Assembly (NCBI RefSeq): GCF_944390845.1
Contig: NZ_CALXRM010000017.1
Coordinates: 1-50,952, forward strand
Direction: 5' to 3'
Length of the DNA: 50,952 nt
Origin: an uncultured Brachyspira sp.
Lineage (GTDB): Bacteria; Spirochaetota; Brachyspiria; Brachyspirales; Brachyspiraceae
Both the position numbers and the translations under genes were made by a program. The notes below the pieces were generated by a model. The model was not told where the DNA came from. It saw only the letters and a program-made list of their open reading frames with translations, and made no database searches. Shown here piece after piece: positions 17,347-38,773 of the stretch (position 1 is its first letter; each line of letters opens with the position of its first letter).

Positions 17347-17374
17347 TTGATTTTTTATAGTAAATGTTTATAAT
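17347..17374 (+). promoter_or_regulatory. Promoter of first solute-binding gene
   Basis: TTGATT at 17347-17352 and TATAAT at 17369-17374 with a 16-base spacer. The AAATTGATTTTTT core recurs before the next three paralogues. The promoter remains intact although the gene it serves is broken. Confidence 0.6.
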
Positions 17375-17399
17375 ATATAAAAAATTAAGGAGTTATTAT

Positions 17400-18729
17400 A
17401 TGAGACATTATCTAAATGTTTTTATAGTTCTTTTATTATCTGTATTTCTTTTTTCATGTGGCGGCGGTAATAAATAAGCAGAAACTAAAGCTGTTGAATT
17501 ACCTACAATAGATGAAAATACAGAAACAGAACTTATCGTTTGGGGTTGGAATGTTGCTGCTAAAGCTTTAGAAGAAACAGCAAAAACATTTAATGAAAAA
17601 TATCCAAAAATAAAAATTACAGTACAAGAATTCGGCGGTGCCGGTCAATTATATGAAAAAGCTGGTGTTGTACTTTCTTCTGGTCAAGGTGTTCCAGACA
17701 TAATGCAATTAGAAAGCGACTATGTACAAACTTATGCTGAAAATTATCCTCAGCATTTCTTAGATTTAAAATCATTAGCACCTGCTGATATAGATACTAA
17801 AGTGGATCCCATCTAAAGTATCAACTAGCTATGATACTACAGGAAAATTAGTTGCTATAGCTTGGGATTCCGGTCCTGTAGTTATGTTCTATAGAGCTGA
17901 TTTATTTAAAGAAGCTGGTATAGATCCTAATTCTATAGAAACTTATGATGACTATATTGCTGCTGGTAAAAAATTCCAAGAAAAATTCCCTAACATGAAA
18001 TTCTTTGGTAATATGTATGTACAAGATGACGGAGTTTGGAGAAATATGATGGTTCAAAATGACACTTATTATCTAAACAAAAATGGTGAAATAACTATAG
18101 CATCTCCAAAAACAATAGAAGCTACAAAAGTATTAAGAAGTTTTGCTGATGAAGGTATAATGATAAATACTGTTAACTGGGACGGATCAATAAGAGCTAA
18201 TAAAAGCGGAGAAGTAGCTACTTATATGTCTGGTGCTTGGTGGGCTGGTACTATAAAAGACCAAATGCCTGAAATGAAAGGTAAATGGGGAATTATGCCT
18301 ATGCCTGCTTATACTAAAGGCGGTATTAGAGCTTCTTCTCATGGCGGTTCTACTTTAACTATAACTGCTTCTGATCCTGTTAAACAAGCTGCTGCTTGGG
18401 CTTTTGTAGAACATTCATTATTAAATGTTGACAATCAAATATTAATGTATAAAAACTATGGATTATTCCCATCTTATTTACCTGTTTATGACGATCCTAG
18501 ATTCCAAGAAGCTGATGAGTATTTTGGAGAAGGATTTAATCAAATGTTAGGTCAAATAACTAAAGAAATACCTGCTGCAATATATACTTCTTCTGATTAT
18601 TCTGAAGTTAGAAACATTTGTGTAGGTGCTTATGAAGCTATTTTAAATAATAATGCTGATATAGAAAAAACTTTACAAGATTCAGCTCAGCAAATAAGCA
18701 GTGCTACTGGAAGAAAAATAGCTAAATAA
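17400..18729 (+). pseudogene. Sugar ABC transporter solute-binding lipoprotein, broken copy
   Basis: This first of four tandem paralogues carries two lesions. The ATG at 17400 (GGAG upstream) opens a lipoprotein signal with Cys20, but codon 26 is TAA (17475-17477), where the paralogues continue through NK-TEQ. The reading then resumes to 17808, where an extra C in CCC shifts the frame and gives a TAA at 17814. Removing one C restores DPSKVSTSYD and the frame runs to 18729. The remainder matches the intact copies closely, so the damage is recent. An internal ATG at 17884 could at most yield a 281-residue fragment without export signal. Confidence 0.85.
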
Positions 18730-25102: not shown

Positions 25103-25138
25103 AAAAGGATTTAGTAAATTGCTTACTAAATCCTTTTT
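25103..25138. terminator. Bidirectional terminator
   Basis: AAAAGGATTTAGTAA (25103-25117) pairs perfectly with TTACTAAATCCTTTT (25123-25137) around a 5-base loop. It has an A run on one side and a T run on the other, between the convergent permease and amidohydrolase genes. Confidence 0.9.
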
Positions 25139-25159: not shown

Positions 25160-26740
25160 TCAAGCACTATAAACTATATCACCATCAACTATAGTTTTTA
25201 ATACTTTTATATCTTTTATTTCTTGTGTATCTACTTCAAATATATCTCTGTCTAATACTATAAAGTCAGCTAATTTATCTTCTTCTATGCTTCCTTTAAC
25301 ATTATCTTCAGAAGACATATAAGCACTTCCCATAGTATACAAATAAACTGCTTCTTTAACAGTAAGTTTTTCTTGAGGCATCCAACCGCCTTCAGGCCAG
25401 CCATTCAAGTCTTGTCTATTAACCGCACAGTATATACCTTCCATAACACTTATGCCATCAACGAAACCTGCAGAACCAAATGCCACATTAACTCCCATAT
25501 CCATAGCTGTCTTATAAGCGTAACTTGTAGAAGCTTTCTCCTTACCTACTCTCTCCTCGGCAATATGCATATCATTATGAAGGAATATAGGCTGATAATA
25601 TACACCTACATTTAATTCTTTCATTCTTTCAAATAAATCTTTATCTGTTATTTGACAATAAACTAATCCGTTTCTTCTATATTTGAAATTTTTAGTATCT
25701 TTTATTTTTTCTATAGAATTTAATGCCATTTCTATAGCACCATCACCTGTAGCCTGTATAGCAAGAGAGTAATCCAAACTATTAGCATAGCTTACTAAAT
25801 CATCAAGTTCTTCCTGATTATACTGAGTAACACCTCTAAATCCTGAAAGATCATTATAATCATCTCTTAAAAATGCTGTTCTTGAACCTATACCTCCGTC
25901 TATAACAAGTTTAATACGTGATACTTTAAATCTATCATCATTTATATATTGATAATAGTAGTATTGTCTAAAATCATCTATATCTTTTTTATTTATAAAT
26001 TGAGCATGTTCACAAACTCTTATTTTTAGTTTTTTCTCTCTATGTAATTTTTGATAAGCATCTATAATCTTTCTATAATCAAAATCCGGCAAACTTCTTA
26101 AATCATCTGTTTGTATTGAAGTAATACCCATTTTGAAGAATCTTTCCTGAGCATCTAATATTATTGATTTTAAAGTATCTATTTCCAATGATTTAATCTT
26201 TGATAAAATCAAAAACATATCTTTAGAACTGATTAAACCATTTTCAAAATCTATACTATCTGATGACATTTCATCTGTAATGCCGCATATTTCAAGAGCC
26301 TTACTATTAGCAACTATCATTTCACCGCAGCATCTTCTAAAAGCAACTGGAATTTCACTGGATATCTCATCTAAATCTTTTTTATTAAGCATTCTTTGTT
26401 CTTCAAAATAATCCTGATTCCAGCCCCAGCCTATAATCCAGCCTTCATATTGTTCAGCTTTTTGAGCAAGTTCTATTACTTGTCTTATAGATTCGCATTC
26501 ACTTAAATCAAGCATAGTATTAAAACGTGCATAACCAACTAAATTAACACTGCTGTCATTAAAACCCGGTATTACTGTCTTTCCCTCTAAATCAATTACT
26601 TCTTCAGCATTTGGATATTTTTTTAATACTTCTTCATTAGTTCCGGCAAAAGAAATTCTTCCATTCTCAACTGCAAGAGCTTCATAAATACTATCTTTTT
26701 TATCCATAGAATAAATTTTAGCATTCTTAAAAATTCTCAT
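25160..26740 (-). CDS. Amidohydrolase-fold protein (YtcJ-like) lacking metal ligands
   Basis: A 526-residue full-length member of the amidohydrolase 3 (YtcJ) family with AAAGGAG before the ATG. Landmarks align along the whole length: VIPGFNDS at 57-63, the WIIGWGW stretch at 101-107, NSKALE at 145-150, KLVIDGGIGSRTA at 277-289, ATGDGAI at 330-336 and GSIEEDKLADFIVLD at 483-497. Yet the expected metal-binding residues are replaced: the HxH pair is Ser64/Asn66, the His of HAxGD is Gln329, the His of the EH pair is Tyr361 and the Asp of GSD is Ala424. It is probably a pseudoenzyme with a binding or regulatory role, or a very recent functional loss without frame damage. Confidence 0.85.
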   Translation of the reverse strand: MRIFKNAKIYSMDKKDSIYEALAVENGRISFAGTNEEVLKKYPNAEEVIDLEGKTVIPGFNDSSVNLVGYARFNTMLDLSECESIRQVIELAQKAEQYEGWIIGWGWNQDYFEEQRMLNKKDLDEISSEIPVAFRRCCGEMIVANSKALEICGITDEMSSDSIDFENGLISSKDMFLILSKIKSLEIDTLKSIILDAQERFFKMGITSIQTDDLRSLPDFDYRKIIDAYQKLHREKKLKIRVCEHAQFINKKDIDDFRQYYYYQYINDDRFKVSRIKLVIDGGIGSRTAFLRDDYNDLSGFRGVTQYNQEELDDLVSYANSLDYSLAIQATGDGAIEMALNSIEKIKDTKNFKYRRNGLVYCQITDKDLFERMKELNVGVYYQPIFLHNDMHIAEERVGKEKASTSYAYKTAMDMGVNVAFGSAGFVDGISVMEGIYCAVNRQDLNGWPEGGWMPQEKLTVKEAVYLYTMGSAYMSSEDNVKGSIEEDKLADFIVLDRDIFEVDTQEIKDIKVLKTIVDGDIVYSA

Positions 26741-26756
26741 TCAGTACTCCTTTTAT

Positions 26757-28574
26757 TTATTGTAACATAGATTTTATATTATCTATATCTTCATTGACTA
26801 AGAGCCATTCATTCTCTGTTTCTTCTATTAATTTTTTTACTTCCAATAAACGTTTGCTTTTTTCATCATCATAGCTGGAAGAAGTTTCAAAAAATTTCAA
26901 TATTTCAGCTTCTTCTTTTTTATAATCTTCTATTTGCTTTTCATGTTTTTTTAACAATGATTCGCATTTAGAAAGTTTATTTCTGATTTTTTTTCTTTCT
27001 TCATAGCTATTATTGTTTTTATCTTCATTACTTACATTTTCTTTATTATTATTTGCCTGATATTCAAGTTCTTTTTCTTCTTCTTCTAAAGCATCAAGTC
27101 TTACTCTATAAACATAAGCCTCATAATCTCCAGAATAAAGCGAAAGTTTTTTATCTTTAACTTCTATTATTGTATCAGCAAGCAAACTAGCAAATGTTCT
27201 ATCATGCGATGTAAAGAATATTGTTCCGCCGTAATCTCTCAAAGAATTAGCAAGTGCCTCAACTGTTTCAAAATCCAAATGGTTTGTGGGTTCGTCTAAT
27301 ATAAGAACATCAGCACATTGTGTAATAGCAGCCAAAAGAGATAATCTTGCCATCTCTCCTCCGCTTAGCACCTTAACATCTTTATTAACATCATCACCAG
27401 AAAATAAAAAACTTCCTAAAAGTGTTAAAAGTTCCTGTGTTAATAATCCTTGTTTAGCATTCTTTTTTAGATATGATAATACCGTATCATTAGAAGTTAC
27501 ATTTTTATAAGTATCTTCACCAAAATATGCTATTTTTATACCATAAGAATAATTATAAGTACCTGATACTGGATTAAGTCTTCCTGCTATAGTTCTTAAA
27601 AAAGTAGTTTTACCTTCTCCGTTTTGACCAAGTACAGCTACCCTGCTTCCTCTTGTTATTTCTATACGTCCGCTTTTAGCAACTATCTTATCACCATACC
27701 CAACAGCTAAATCATCTGAAATAAGAGCAAAACCTTTCTTTTCCGGAACCTCTGGAAGTTTTATTCTAACATTCTTTGCCGGGTGAGTTATTTCTATAGT
27801 TTTTAATTTCTCTATTTGTTTTATACGTGATTGTACTGCTTTTGCCTTTGTAGCTTTATATCTGAATCTTTCTACAAATCTCTCTAAATGAGCCTTTCTT
27901 TCCTCAACATTCTTATTATACTTTTTTATTGTATATTCTTTTTCTTCTTTATATTCAAAATAATCTTCTATATTTCCAGGAAAATATGTTAACTTTCCGT
28001 TTTCCATTTCCACAGTTTTATCACAAGTAGTTTTCAAGAACTCCCTATCGTGAGAAACAATTAAAAAGCCTCCATTATAATCCATTAAAAAATTTTCTAA
28101 ATCTATTAATGTGTTCAAATCCAAAAAGTTTGAAGGTTCGTCCAATATTAAGAAATTTGGTTCATAAAGCATCATTTCTGAAAGTTTTACTCTCATTCTA
28201 TAACCGCTTGATAAACTTCCCAAATTATAATTTATTTTAATATGGTCTATACCAAATCGGCTGGCTATTTTAGAACATTTCCAAGATTCTTTTGATGTAA
28301 CTCTTGTAAGATAATCTATTACTTTTTCATTATCATCAAAATCACCCTGCTGACGCAAATAACCAATTCTTACATCATCTGAAAATACTATTTCTCCGTC
28401 GTCAGGTTCTTCAATTCCCATAAGAATTTTTAAAAGAGTAGTTTTACCTGCCCCATTGCGTCCTATCATACCTATTTTGGATTTTTCCTCTATAAGTAAA
28501 TTTACGCCGTCAAGCAAAACTTTATGAACAAATCTTTTAGATATATTTACTATATTTATTATACTTCTAGCCAT
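26757..28574 (-). CDS. ABC-F family ATPase
   Basis: A 605-residue soluble protein with two ABC domains in one chain and no membrane segment. Walker A motifs are GRNGAGKTTLL (first) and GQNGEGKTTFL (second); signatures are LSSGYRMRV and LSGGEMARL; both Walker B/H-switch segments (LDEPSNFLDL, LDEPTNHLDF) are intact. The basic helical linker between domains (about 215-270) matches the tRNA-interacting linker of ABC-F factors, and a C-terminal coiled coil follows. Family members act on the ribosome to relieve stalling or protect from antibiotics; the subtype cannot be assigned. It lies 16 bases upstream of the amidohydrolase-fold gene. Confidence 0.9.
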   Translation of the reverse strand: MARSIINIVNISKRFVHKVLLDGVNLLIEEKSKIGMIGRNGAGKTTLLKILMGIEEPDDGEIVFSDDVRIGYLRQQGDFDDNEKVIDYLTRVTSKESWKCSKIASRFGIDHIKINYNLGSLSSGYRMRVKLSEMMLYEPNFLILDEPSNFLDLNTLIDLENFLMDYNGGFLIVSHDREFLKTTCDKTVEMENGKLTYFPGNIEDYFEYKEEKEYTIKKYNKNVEERKAHLERFVERFRYKATKAKAVQSRIKQIEKLKTIEITHPAKNVRIKLPEVPEKKGFALISDDLAVGYGDKIVAKSGRIEITRGSRVAVLGQNGEGKTTFLRTIAGRLNPVSGTYNYSYGIKIAYFGEDTYKNVTSNDTVLSYLKKNAKQGLLTQELLTLLGSFLFSGDDVNKDVKVLSGGEMARLSLLAAITQCADVLILDEPTNHLDFETVEALANSLRDYGGTIFFTSHDRTFASLLADTIIEVKDKKLSLYSGDYEAYVYRVRLDALEEEEKELEYQANNNKENVSNEDKNNNSYEERKKIRNKLSKCESLLKKHEKQIEDYKKEEAEILKFFETSSSYDDEKSKRLLEVKKLIEETENEWLLVNEDIDNIKSMLQ

Positions 28575-37018: not shown

Positions 37019-38773
37019 TTATTTTTCAAGTCTCACCAGTAATTTATTTTTGTTATTTTCCGGTATATTAGAATGCGTTATATTATATATTATTCTTTTT
37101 CTTATCTTATCAATTATGCTTATTTCTTTATTTTGACAATATGACATAATATCTAAAATATTATTTGTTATATCAACTAAATACTCATTAGATTTTTTAG
37201 AACATAATCTAGTGTAAACTTTTAATATATATTCACCAAAATACTTTATAAGCTTTACATTATTAGCCAATATAGCAGCATTAAAATGATAGGCATATAC
37301 TTGTAATGCACTAATATTATCTTCTTTTATATATCTATCCAAAAATAAAGAAAACATTTTTATATATTCTAAACTTTTATTCTGAAGTTTTCTGCATATT
37401 TCTTCTTTATTTATTATATGAGTTGAATACTGTAAATCTAATACTAGAATATCATTTCTATCATAATCAAATACAATACTATCCTTAGAACAATCTAAAG
37501 GACTTTCTAATTTCAATCTTATATTTTCTATATATTTTAAATTTTTATTTATATTATTTGAATGAGATTTTTTCTTTCTAGTATTAACAACGAATAAATA
37601 TTCAACATTTTTAGTTTTATTGACTACAGACCTTTTAGCACCTCTATACTTAGTATACTCAGAAGTAACAATATCCAGCTTACCCACACTTTCAAGCATA
37701 GAAATTAAATCATCATATTCTATTATGCCGTCAGTAGAATAACTCATAATAATATGATTAGCATCTATATTATTTATCAAATTCATTAAAGCATCTTTTG
37801 CAGTTTTTTTATAACAATACAATGATTTAGTTTTTATCCAATCCTTTCTAATTCCGCCTTTATTAGTTTTCTTTCCATCAATATAAATATCTTTATTAAT
37901 AGCAGGCTTATCCCATAAAGCTATTGTATTTAATAAATGATAATTACTTCCATATTGATGCTGATTATAAGGCGGGTCTAAATATACTAAATCAAAATGC
38001 TTATTCTTATTTTGCTTCACAAATTCATTAGCATCTAACATACTTGCATGACATTTCTTTCCTTGAAATAAAGGAATCTGCTTTAATGATATATGAGATA
38101 ATATTCTATTTAAAGCATCTTTATTTCTTCCTCCGAAACCAGCATGAAAAGCTTTAAAAACACCAGATGTATTTGTATGAGTTGCTGATTCATATATGAT
38201 AGAAGCTATCAAATAATAATACTCTTTTTGATTTATAACTTTATTTTTGTAAAGTTCTTCTACATTATGTCTTATAATATCTATTCTTGAAGCATTATAC
38301 TGAGTATAAAAAAGTCTTTCATTCAATAAATCAGGATTATCATCATCTAAAGGAGCATAGTATTTGGATATATATCTGTCTTCATCATTAATAAAATCAA
38401 TATTATTAATCATATCTATAGTATTATTTACCCCTCCGGTATGAATAAACATATTATTTAAATCTTTAATATTAATTGTAAGGTGAGCATAGTTTAAAAC
38501 ATAAGAATAATATTCCCAATCATTTGAATAAACTTCCAAATTCATAGTTTTTAAAAGTCTTGACACACTGCCGCTTCCTGCAAATAAATCAAGTGCAGTA
38601 TTAATAGTATTATCTTCTTCTAGAATACTGAAAATAGTTCTTTCTATGAAAGGAAGAAGTCTTCTTTTATTACCAATATATGCTATTAAATTTTCTTTTA
38701 AATAATTATCTTTTATATTATTTTCCGTATTAGTTATCATAATCTTATTATCATAATATAGTTTACATAACAT
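37019..38773 (-). CDS. D12-class adenine-N6 DNA methyltransferase, probably orphan
   Basis: A 584-residue protein (573 if the Met at codon 12 is used; neither start has a clear ribosome-binding site). AYIGNKRRLLPFI (31-43) and DLFAGSGSVS (62-71) form the SAM site, and LDPPYN (265-270) is the catalytic motif IV, so the D12 adenine methyltransferase assignment is firm. Residues of about 410-584 form an extra helical region I cannot assign, possibly for target recognition or another activity. No restriction gene is adjacent; it may act in regulation or as phage protection. Isolation and added domain suggest horizontal acquisition. Confidence 0.85.
   Translation of the reverse strand: MLCKLYYDNKIMITNTENNIKDNYLKENLIAYIGNKRRLLPFIERTIFSILEEDNTINTALDLFAGSGSVSRLLKTMNLEVYSNDWEYYSYVLNYAHLTINIKDLNNMFIHTGGVNNTIDMINNIDFINDEDRYISKYYAPLDDDNPDLLNERLFYTQYNASRIDIIRHNVEELYKNKVINQKEYYYLIASIIYESATHTNTSGVFKAFHAGFGGRNKDALNRILSHISLKQIPLFQGKKCHASMLDANEFVKQNKNKHFDLVYLDPPYNQHQYGSNYHLLNTIALWDKPAINKDIYIDGKKTNKGGIRKDWIKTKSLYCYKKTAKDALMNLINNIDANHIIMSYSTDGIIEYDDLISMLESVGKLDIVTSEYTKYRGAKRSVVNKTKNVEYLFVVNTRKKKSHSNNINKNLKYIENIRLKLESPLDCSKDSIVFDYDRNDILVLDLQYSTHIINKEEICRKLQNKSLEYIKMFSLFLDRYIKEDNISALQVYAYHFNAAILANNVKLIKYFGEYILKVYTRLCSKKSNEYLVDITNNILDIMSYCQNKEISIIDKIRKRIIYNITHSNIPENNKNKLLVRLEK

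Follow-up and report, generated by a model that had tools for sequence, protein, structure and literature searches.

The gene at 25160-26740 of this stretch raises the question of what becomes of an amidohydrolase-fold protein once most of the residues of its metal centre have been replaced. It lies in a 50,952-nt stretch of DNA from an uncultured Brachyspira sp. (NZ_CALXRM010000017.1, positions 1 to 50,952; hereafter, the window) and is read from the minus strand. The frame has an ATG start, encodes 526 aa, and contains no internal stop codon. Its product covers the PF07969 (Amidohydro_3) profile in its entirety (1-472 of 472; 275.3 bits versus a curated cut-off of 29.7; 2e-81). An AlphaFold2 model of the 526-aa protein has a pLDDT of 93.8 with no residue below 50. 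Among solved structures, the nearest are two metal-dependent hydrolases of Pyrococcus, 3igh (Z 47.7, rmsd 3.7 over 477 residues) and 3icj (Z 45.8). The amidohydrolase fold is thus present, and the initial annotation, which described a full-length protein of this fold, is backed by both the whole-profile match and the confident model. The N-terminus runs directly into the domain and has no signal sequence apparent by eye; a cytosolic location is most likely.

A dinuclear amidohydrolase site is formed by the two His of an HxH motif, a bridging Lys that is often carboxylated, two more His, and one Asp. For BwBSH1, a metallo bile salt hydrolase of PF07969, a preprint (PMC13081902) gives a six-ligand dinuclear site (H110, H112, K373, H441, H474, and D583), places His196 near the scissile amide bond, and reports that an Ala mutant of each single ligand, or of the catalytic His196, abolished activity. 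The ligand positions of the window protein are, by alignment, S64, N66, K277, Q329, Y361, and A424 (Table 1). The five replacements named in the initial annotation are all found where it placed them and in ligand columns. Its broader statement, that every metal ligand had been replaced, holds for five of the six; the bridging K277 is kept, as it is in all 23 orthologues. An additional replacement that was absent from its list is the loss of the catalytic His at column 140, where the protein has Glu. Column 140 is probably the equivalent of BwBSH1 His196, as judged from an R-x-C-x-H...N-S motif.

Table 1. Coordinates of the pseudoenzyme gene, its altered catalytic positions, and adjoining features in the window.
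Feature	Position	Strand	Basis
Amidohydro_3 (YtcJ-like) pseudoenzyme, 526 aa	25160..26740	(-)	ORF, profile match, orthologue alignment, model
Former HxH motif, now Ser64-Val-Asn66	26543..26551	(-)	Alignment; position computed from ORF start
Glu140, replacing the conserved catalytic His	26321..26323	(-)	Alignment; His role from PMC13081902
Lys277, retained bridging (carboxylatable) lysine	25910..25912	(-)	Alignment
Gln329, replacing the strand-5 His	25754..25756	(-)	Alignment
Tyr361, replacing the strand-6 His	25658..25660	(-)	Alignment
Ala424, replacing the strand-8 Asp	25469..25471	(-)	Alignment
ABC-F family ATPase, same strand, upstream	26757..28574	(-)	Neighbourhood comparison, profile match
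16-nt intergenic gap with Shine-Dalgarno-like AAAGGAG	26741..26756	(-)	Sequence scan
Predicted intrinsic terminator after the pseudoenzyme gene, 16-pair stem	25103..25137	(-)	Consensus scan only

If the metal centre had been rebuilt from histidines at shifted positions, then the protein could still be an ordinary metallo-amidohydrolase, and the presence of K277 in 23 of 23 copies and of His at column 361 in 10 of 23 would be in keeping with this. However, the window protein contains only four His in all (233, 245, 388, and 392), and column 392 is the sole His column that is invariant among the 23 Brachyspira copies. The check for ligand rescue by realignment, which the initial annotation had suggested, found no shifted histidines. 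Relocated ligands were therefore ruled out, and an ordinary enzyme of this kind is very improbable. From the full set of an enzyme (HxH, His, His, Asp, and Lys), the window protein retains Lys alone, and Glu takes the place of the catalytic His at column 140 in every one of the 23 orthologues.

The extent of these losses is best seen against intact relatives. Two peptide patterns were matched by 548 stretches, of which 389 were confirmed, and the best 80 of the 389 were used. These comprise 13 from Brachyspira (L039-L051, which overlap the genomes already surveyed and were counted once) and 67 others (L052-L118), the latter divided by record origin into 62 Bacillota, two Mycoplasmatota, one labelled Bacteroidota, one Pseudomonadota, and one without a phylum; a structure alignment (A2) took in 51 of the 67 and 10 of the 13 Brachyspira rows. 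The 67 non-Brachyspira relatives among these best 80 are 36 to 45% identical to the window protein in the alignment. All seven catalytic residues are intact in 66 of them, the sole exception (L071) being a His-to-Tyr change at column 64, and column 140 is His in 67 of 67. At least 90% conservation among the same 67 relatives is found in 85 columns. In 66 of these, every one of the 23 Brachyspira copies keeps the family residue; another 8 show a mixture, and in the remaining 11 the residue has been lost entirely. Catalytic columns account for five of these 11 complete losses, with P values of 2.6e-4 for the seven-column set and 2.1e-3 for the six ligands alone, both of which are rough because alignment columns lack independence; the second value is given because column 140 joined the catalytic set after PMC13081902 had been read. 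As judged from these columns, the loss is centred on the catalytic centre, and most of the remaining conserved columns are retained. The initial description of an intact 526-residue frame with its other conserved segments in place agrees with the absence of an internal stop and with the 66 of 85 unchanged columns.

Catalytic residues are also kept in both paralogues of the same genome (contigs C34 and C43), which are approximately 30% identical to the window protein, have all seven residues, and carry lipoprotein-like N-termini. A second PF07969 clade, from another family of the spirochaete phylum, includes five members with piecemeal catalytic losses (L033, L147, L148, L149, and L150) and one that is intact (L151). 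L033, which is approximately 25% identical to the window protein, reads H-N-N-K-Q-F-D at columns 64, 66, 140, 277, 329, 361, and 424, and L148 reads H-R-G-S-Q-Y-N at the same columns. Some of these losses, such as the H66-to-N and H329-to-Q changes of L033, are shared with the Brachyspira copies, but the clade is distant and residue loss is piecemeal in those five of its six members. Loss of the catalytic centre in PF07969 may therefore be commoner than annotation shows.

If the replacements were specific to one strain, then orthologues in other Brachyspira genomes would be expected to retain the ligands. An orthologue is present in 23 of the 26 Brachyspira genomes searched, the window's own included: 21 of the 24 other Brachyspira genomes carry one at 81 to 88% identity, and one further genome came from a phylum-wide search that drew 392 genomes out of the larger number in the phylum. 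The three genomes without an orthologue are G006 (88% complete), G010, and G021, and the gene is therefore not required throughout the genus. Reading frames are intact in all 23 copies, which together read [NCS]-[NR]-E-K-Q-[HYN]-[AS] at the seven catalytic columns. Column 64 is Cys in 13, Asn in 8, and Ser in 2; column 66 is Asn in 20 and Arg in 3; column 361 is Tyr in 10, His in 10, and Asn in 3; and column 424 is Ala in 12 and Ser in 11, with Glu140, Lys277, and Gln329 invariant. Columns 64, 66, 329, and 424 thus hold a non-ligand residue in 23 of 23 copies, so that four of the five replacements are conserved throughout the orthologues and the fifth, at column 361, is not, His being present in 10 of 23. 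Together with column 140, these four columns rule out a strain-specific loss; only column 361 varies with His. The window copy differs from most others in having Phe at column 426, which is Pro in 21 of 23.

In a quick tree, the 23 Brachyspira copies form one side of a single branch (SH-aLRT 100); the stem measures 0.99 changes per site and the crown is shallow. Within Brachyspira, median dN/dS is 0.10 over 253 pairs, somewhat higher than the 0.064 of the neighbouring ABC-F gene, which served as a yardstick (252 pairs, partial sequences of 480 to 493 residues). The gene is now under purifying selection. With catalytic residues lost, and with the fold and the gene kept under such selection, the protein is a pseudoenzyme. 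Much change along the stem, with constraint thereafter, agrees with a functional shift and not with decay. A decaying gene caught ahead of frame loss might be suspected from the window copy, whose terminal branch is the longest of the 23 (0.098 and 0.11 in two trees). However, intact frames in 23 of 23 copies and the median dN/dS speak strongly against this, the losses cluster in catalytic columns, and a ribosome-binding site is present. Decay, which the initial annotation had considered the less likely course, can accordingly be called very unlikely.

The order of the losses can be partly reconstructed. Rows L024-L028, which lie on early branches, read N-N-E-K-Q-H-A at the seven columns; in the common ancestor, four ligands and the catalytic His were therefore probably missing already, and His361 was still present and disappeared later. 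Parsimony requires three changes at column 361. The nearest relatives found among the best 80 of 389 are mostly Bacillota, which suggests that the gene may have been acquired by transfer into an ancestor of most Brachyspira. In the ABC-F tree, the three genomes without the pseudoenzyme fall outside the gene-bearing rows, with weak support (33/90), and tblastn searches (E up to 10) of the stretches around their ABC-F genes found no pseudoenzyme remnant.

The pseudoenzyme gene starts 16 nt past the ABC-F stop codon, and in every one of the 23 Brachyspira loci ABC-F is the immediately upstream gene on that strand, with farther neighbours varying. ABC-F and murD had both been named as neighbours at the outset. 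The first is a constant one; the second is not, as B. pilosicoli-like loci pair ABC-F and the pseudoenzyme without an adjoining murD, and murD was therefore discarded as a constant partner. The ABC-F protein matches the NCBIfam model for a ribosomal protection-like ABC-F protein barely above its cut-off (385 versus 380 bits). The two genes are presumably co-transcribed. The consensus scan that predicted the terminator found 2 such sites in the region versus a shuffle mean of 0.7. ABC-F occurs without the pseudoenzyme in G006, G010, and G021, and the sister-genus genomes G066 and G148 have an ABC-F orthologue with no pseudoenzyme copy adjoining. Any dependence would therefore run from the pseudoenzyme to ABC-F and not the reverse. 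Beside the 67 non-Brachyspira relatives from the best 80 of 389, tblastn with the window's proteins as queries (E up to 1e-5, more than half of the query, some flanks being short) found no ABC-F match.

The constant neighbour allows for a structural or regulatory partner, in which the ABC-F ATPase, or another enzyme, would use the fold as a subunit for assembly or allostery and the pocket would be idle. There is a precedent in pDHO, an inactive chain that is required for aspartate transcarbamoylase activity according to PMC7053772. In contrast, the 66 of 85 family-conserved columns that are unchanged (as defined from the best 80 of 389) exceed what a bare scaffold should need, and the ABC-F genes that stand without the pseudoenzyme in 3 of 26 Brachyspira and two sister-genus genomes indicate that ABC-F generally has no need of it. 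A mixed oligomer with the paralogues is also unlikely, given their low identity and lipoprotein-like N-termini. Such a role is therefore unlikely, although it ranks next after metal-free ligand binding.

The reading that we favour, and which is probably correct, is that the gene encodes a pseudoenzyme conserved in the genus, that this pseudoenzyme descends from a metal-dependent Amidohydro_3 hydrolase, and that its kept pocket binds a small ligand, metal-free, in the cytosol. The phrase used initially, a metal-free binding protein, appears to be the best fit to the evidence; the Brachyspira protein most likely binds something instead of cutting it. On the Brachyspira stem, four ligands (both HxH His, the strand-5 His, and the strand-8 Asp) and the catalytic His would have been lost while the barrel and the majority of the other conserved residues were retained, and the strand-6 His would have been lost later in some lineages, including that of the window. 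A dinuclear metal centre should then not form. Both metals would lack part of their ligand set, and the catalytic His has been replaced as well, so that no hydrolysis by the mechanism of the family is expected; the retained conserved columns suggest that a pocket is still formed. This pocket would bind a small ligand in the cytosol, with the protein acting as a sensor, carrier, or helper that is presumably produced from a single operon with the ABC-F ATPase. The invariant E140, K277, and Q329 may occupy the empty metal site, for instance through a putative E140-K277 salt bridge.

A counterpoint to this metal-free reading is K277 itself, which is kept in 23 of 23 copies and which a wholly metal-free pocket would seem not to require. 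Since 10 of the 23 copies also have His361, a weak single-metal site may exist in those 10. It is likewise conceivable, if improbable, that the protein is an altered enzyme that performs a different reaction, either metal-free or with one metal on K277 (and on H361 where present), using E140, K277, and Q329. The invariance of these three residues in 23 of 23 copies while columns 64, 66, 361, and 424 vary is what a new role would predict, but columns 64, 361, and 424 drift among unlike residues, and every single-ligand mutant of BwBSH1 described in PMC13081902 was inactive. Within the binding reading, one specific version is that the pseudoenzyme is a Brachyspira-specific cytosolic small-molecule sensor that acts with the co-encoded ABC-F and links a drug or a metabolite of the gut to translation; this remains speculative, and we regard it as improbable in that form.

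The Brachyspira copies resemble the Amidohydro_3/YtcJ-like hydrolases (PF07969; 3icj, 3igh, and BwBSH1) in the whole domain, the fold, and the bridging lysine. They differ from these enzymes in having lost the HxH motif, the strand-5 His, the strand-8 Asp, and the catalytic His in 23 of 23 copies, and the strand-6 His in 13 of 23. Amidohydrolase-type pseudoenzymes are already known, namely pDHO and the CRMPs. The CRMPs are not known to have hydrolase activity. As described in PMC7325199, these CRMP/dihydropyrimidinase-like proteins have a dihydropyrimidinase-like fold and a non-enzymatic role; they are animal neuronal proteins of a separate family. The pDHO of Pseudomonas aspartate transcarbamoylase is described in PMC7053772 as an inactive dihydroorotase homologue with missing zinc ligands, and it is similar to the Brachyspira protein, which is presumably inactive too, in being a retained amidohydrolase-type homologue. 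However, pDHO belongs to the dihydroorotase family and its partner is the transcarbamoylase, whereas the Brachyspira neighbour is an ABC-F ATPase. Titles and abstract openings of the open-licence papers searched yielded no described pseudoenzyme of this type in PF07969 or in Brachyspira. The hydrolase label that follows from Pfam is very probably wrong for most of this gut spirochaete genus. The locus offers a clean natural example of catalytic residues lost from a fold that is under selection, with intact relatives for comparison, and its constant ABC-F neighbour is a concrete candidate partner.

A protein of this family has been recorded in B. pilosicoli. LC-MS/MS of one immunoreactive band of sample OLA9 identified five proteins, one of which is given in Table 1 of PMC5415613 as 'Amidohydrolase 3' (D8IAM3, 60.6 kDa); the sample would be B. 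pilosicoli according to the accessions in its table rows. In the B. pilosicoli-like genome G007, three genes match the query: the pseudoenzyme gene, with a product of 60.56 kDa, and two paralogues of 63.1 and 63.6 kDa if translation begins at the first start, one of which would be brought to 60.0 kDa by a later in-frame TTG start. D8IAM3 is likely to be the B. pilosicoli pseudoenzyme, as judged by mass alone. The band contains five proteins, and therefore nothing follows for the antigenicity of the pseudoenzyme.

Elsewhere in the window, four solute-binding protein genes stand in tandem, and the first of them (17364-18729) is broken: its frame is stopped after 37 codons and changes further on. 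The frames of the three downstream of it are open. Additionally, the 584-aa product of 37019-38773 contains a D12-class adenine-specific DNA methyltransferase domain.
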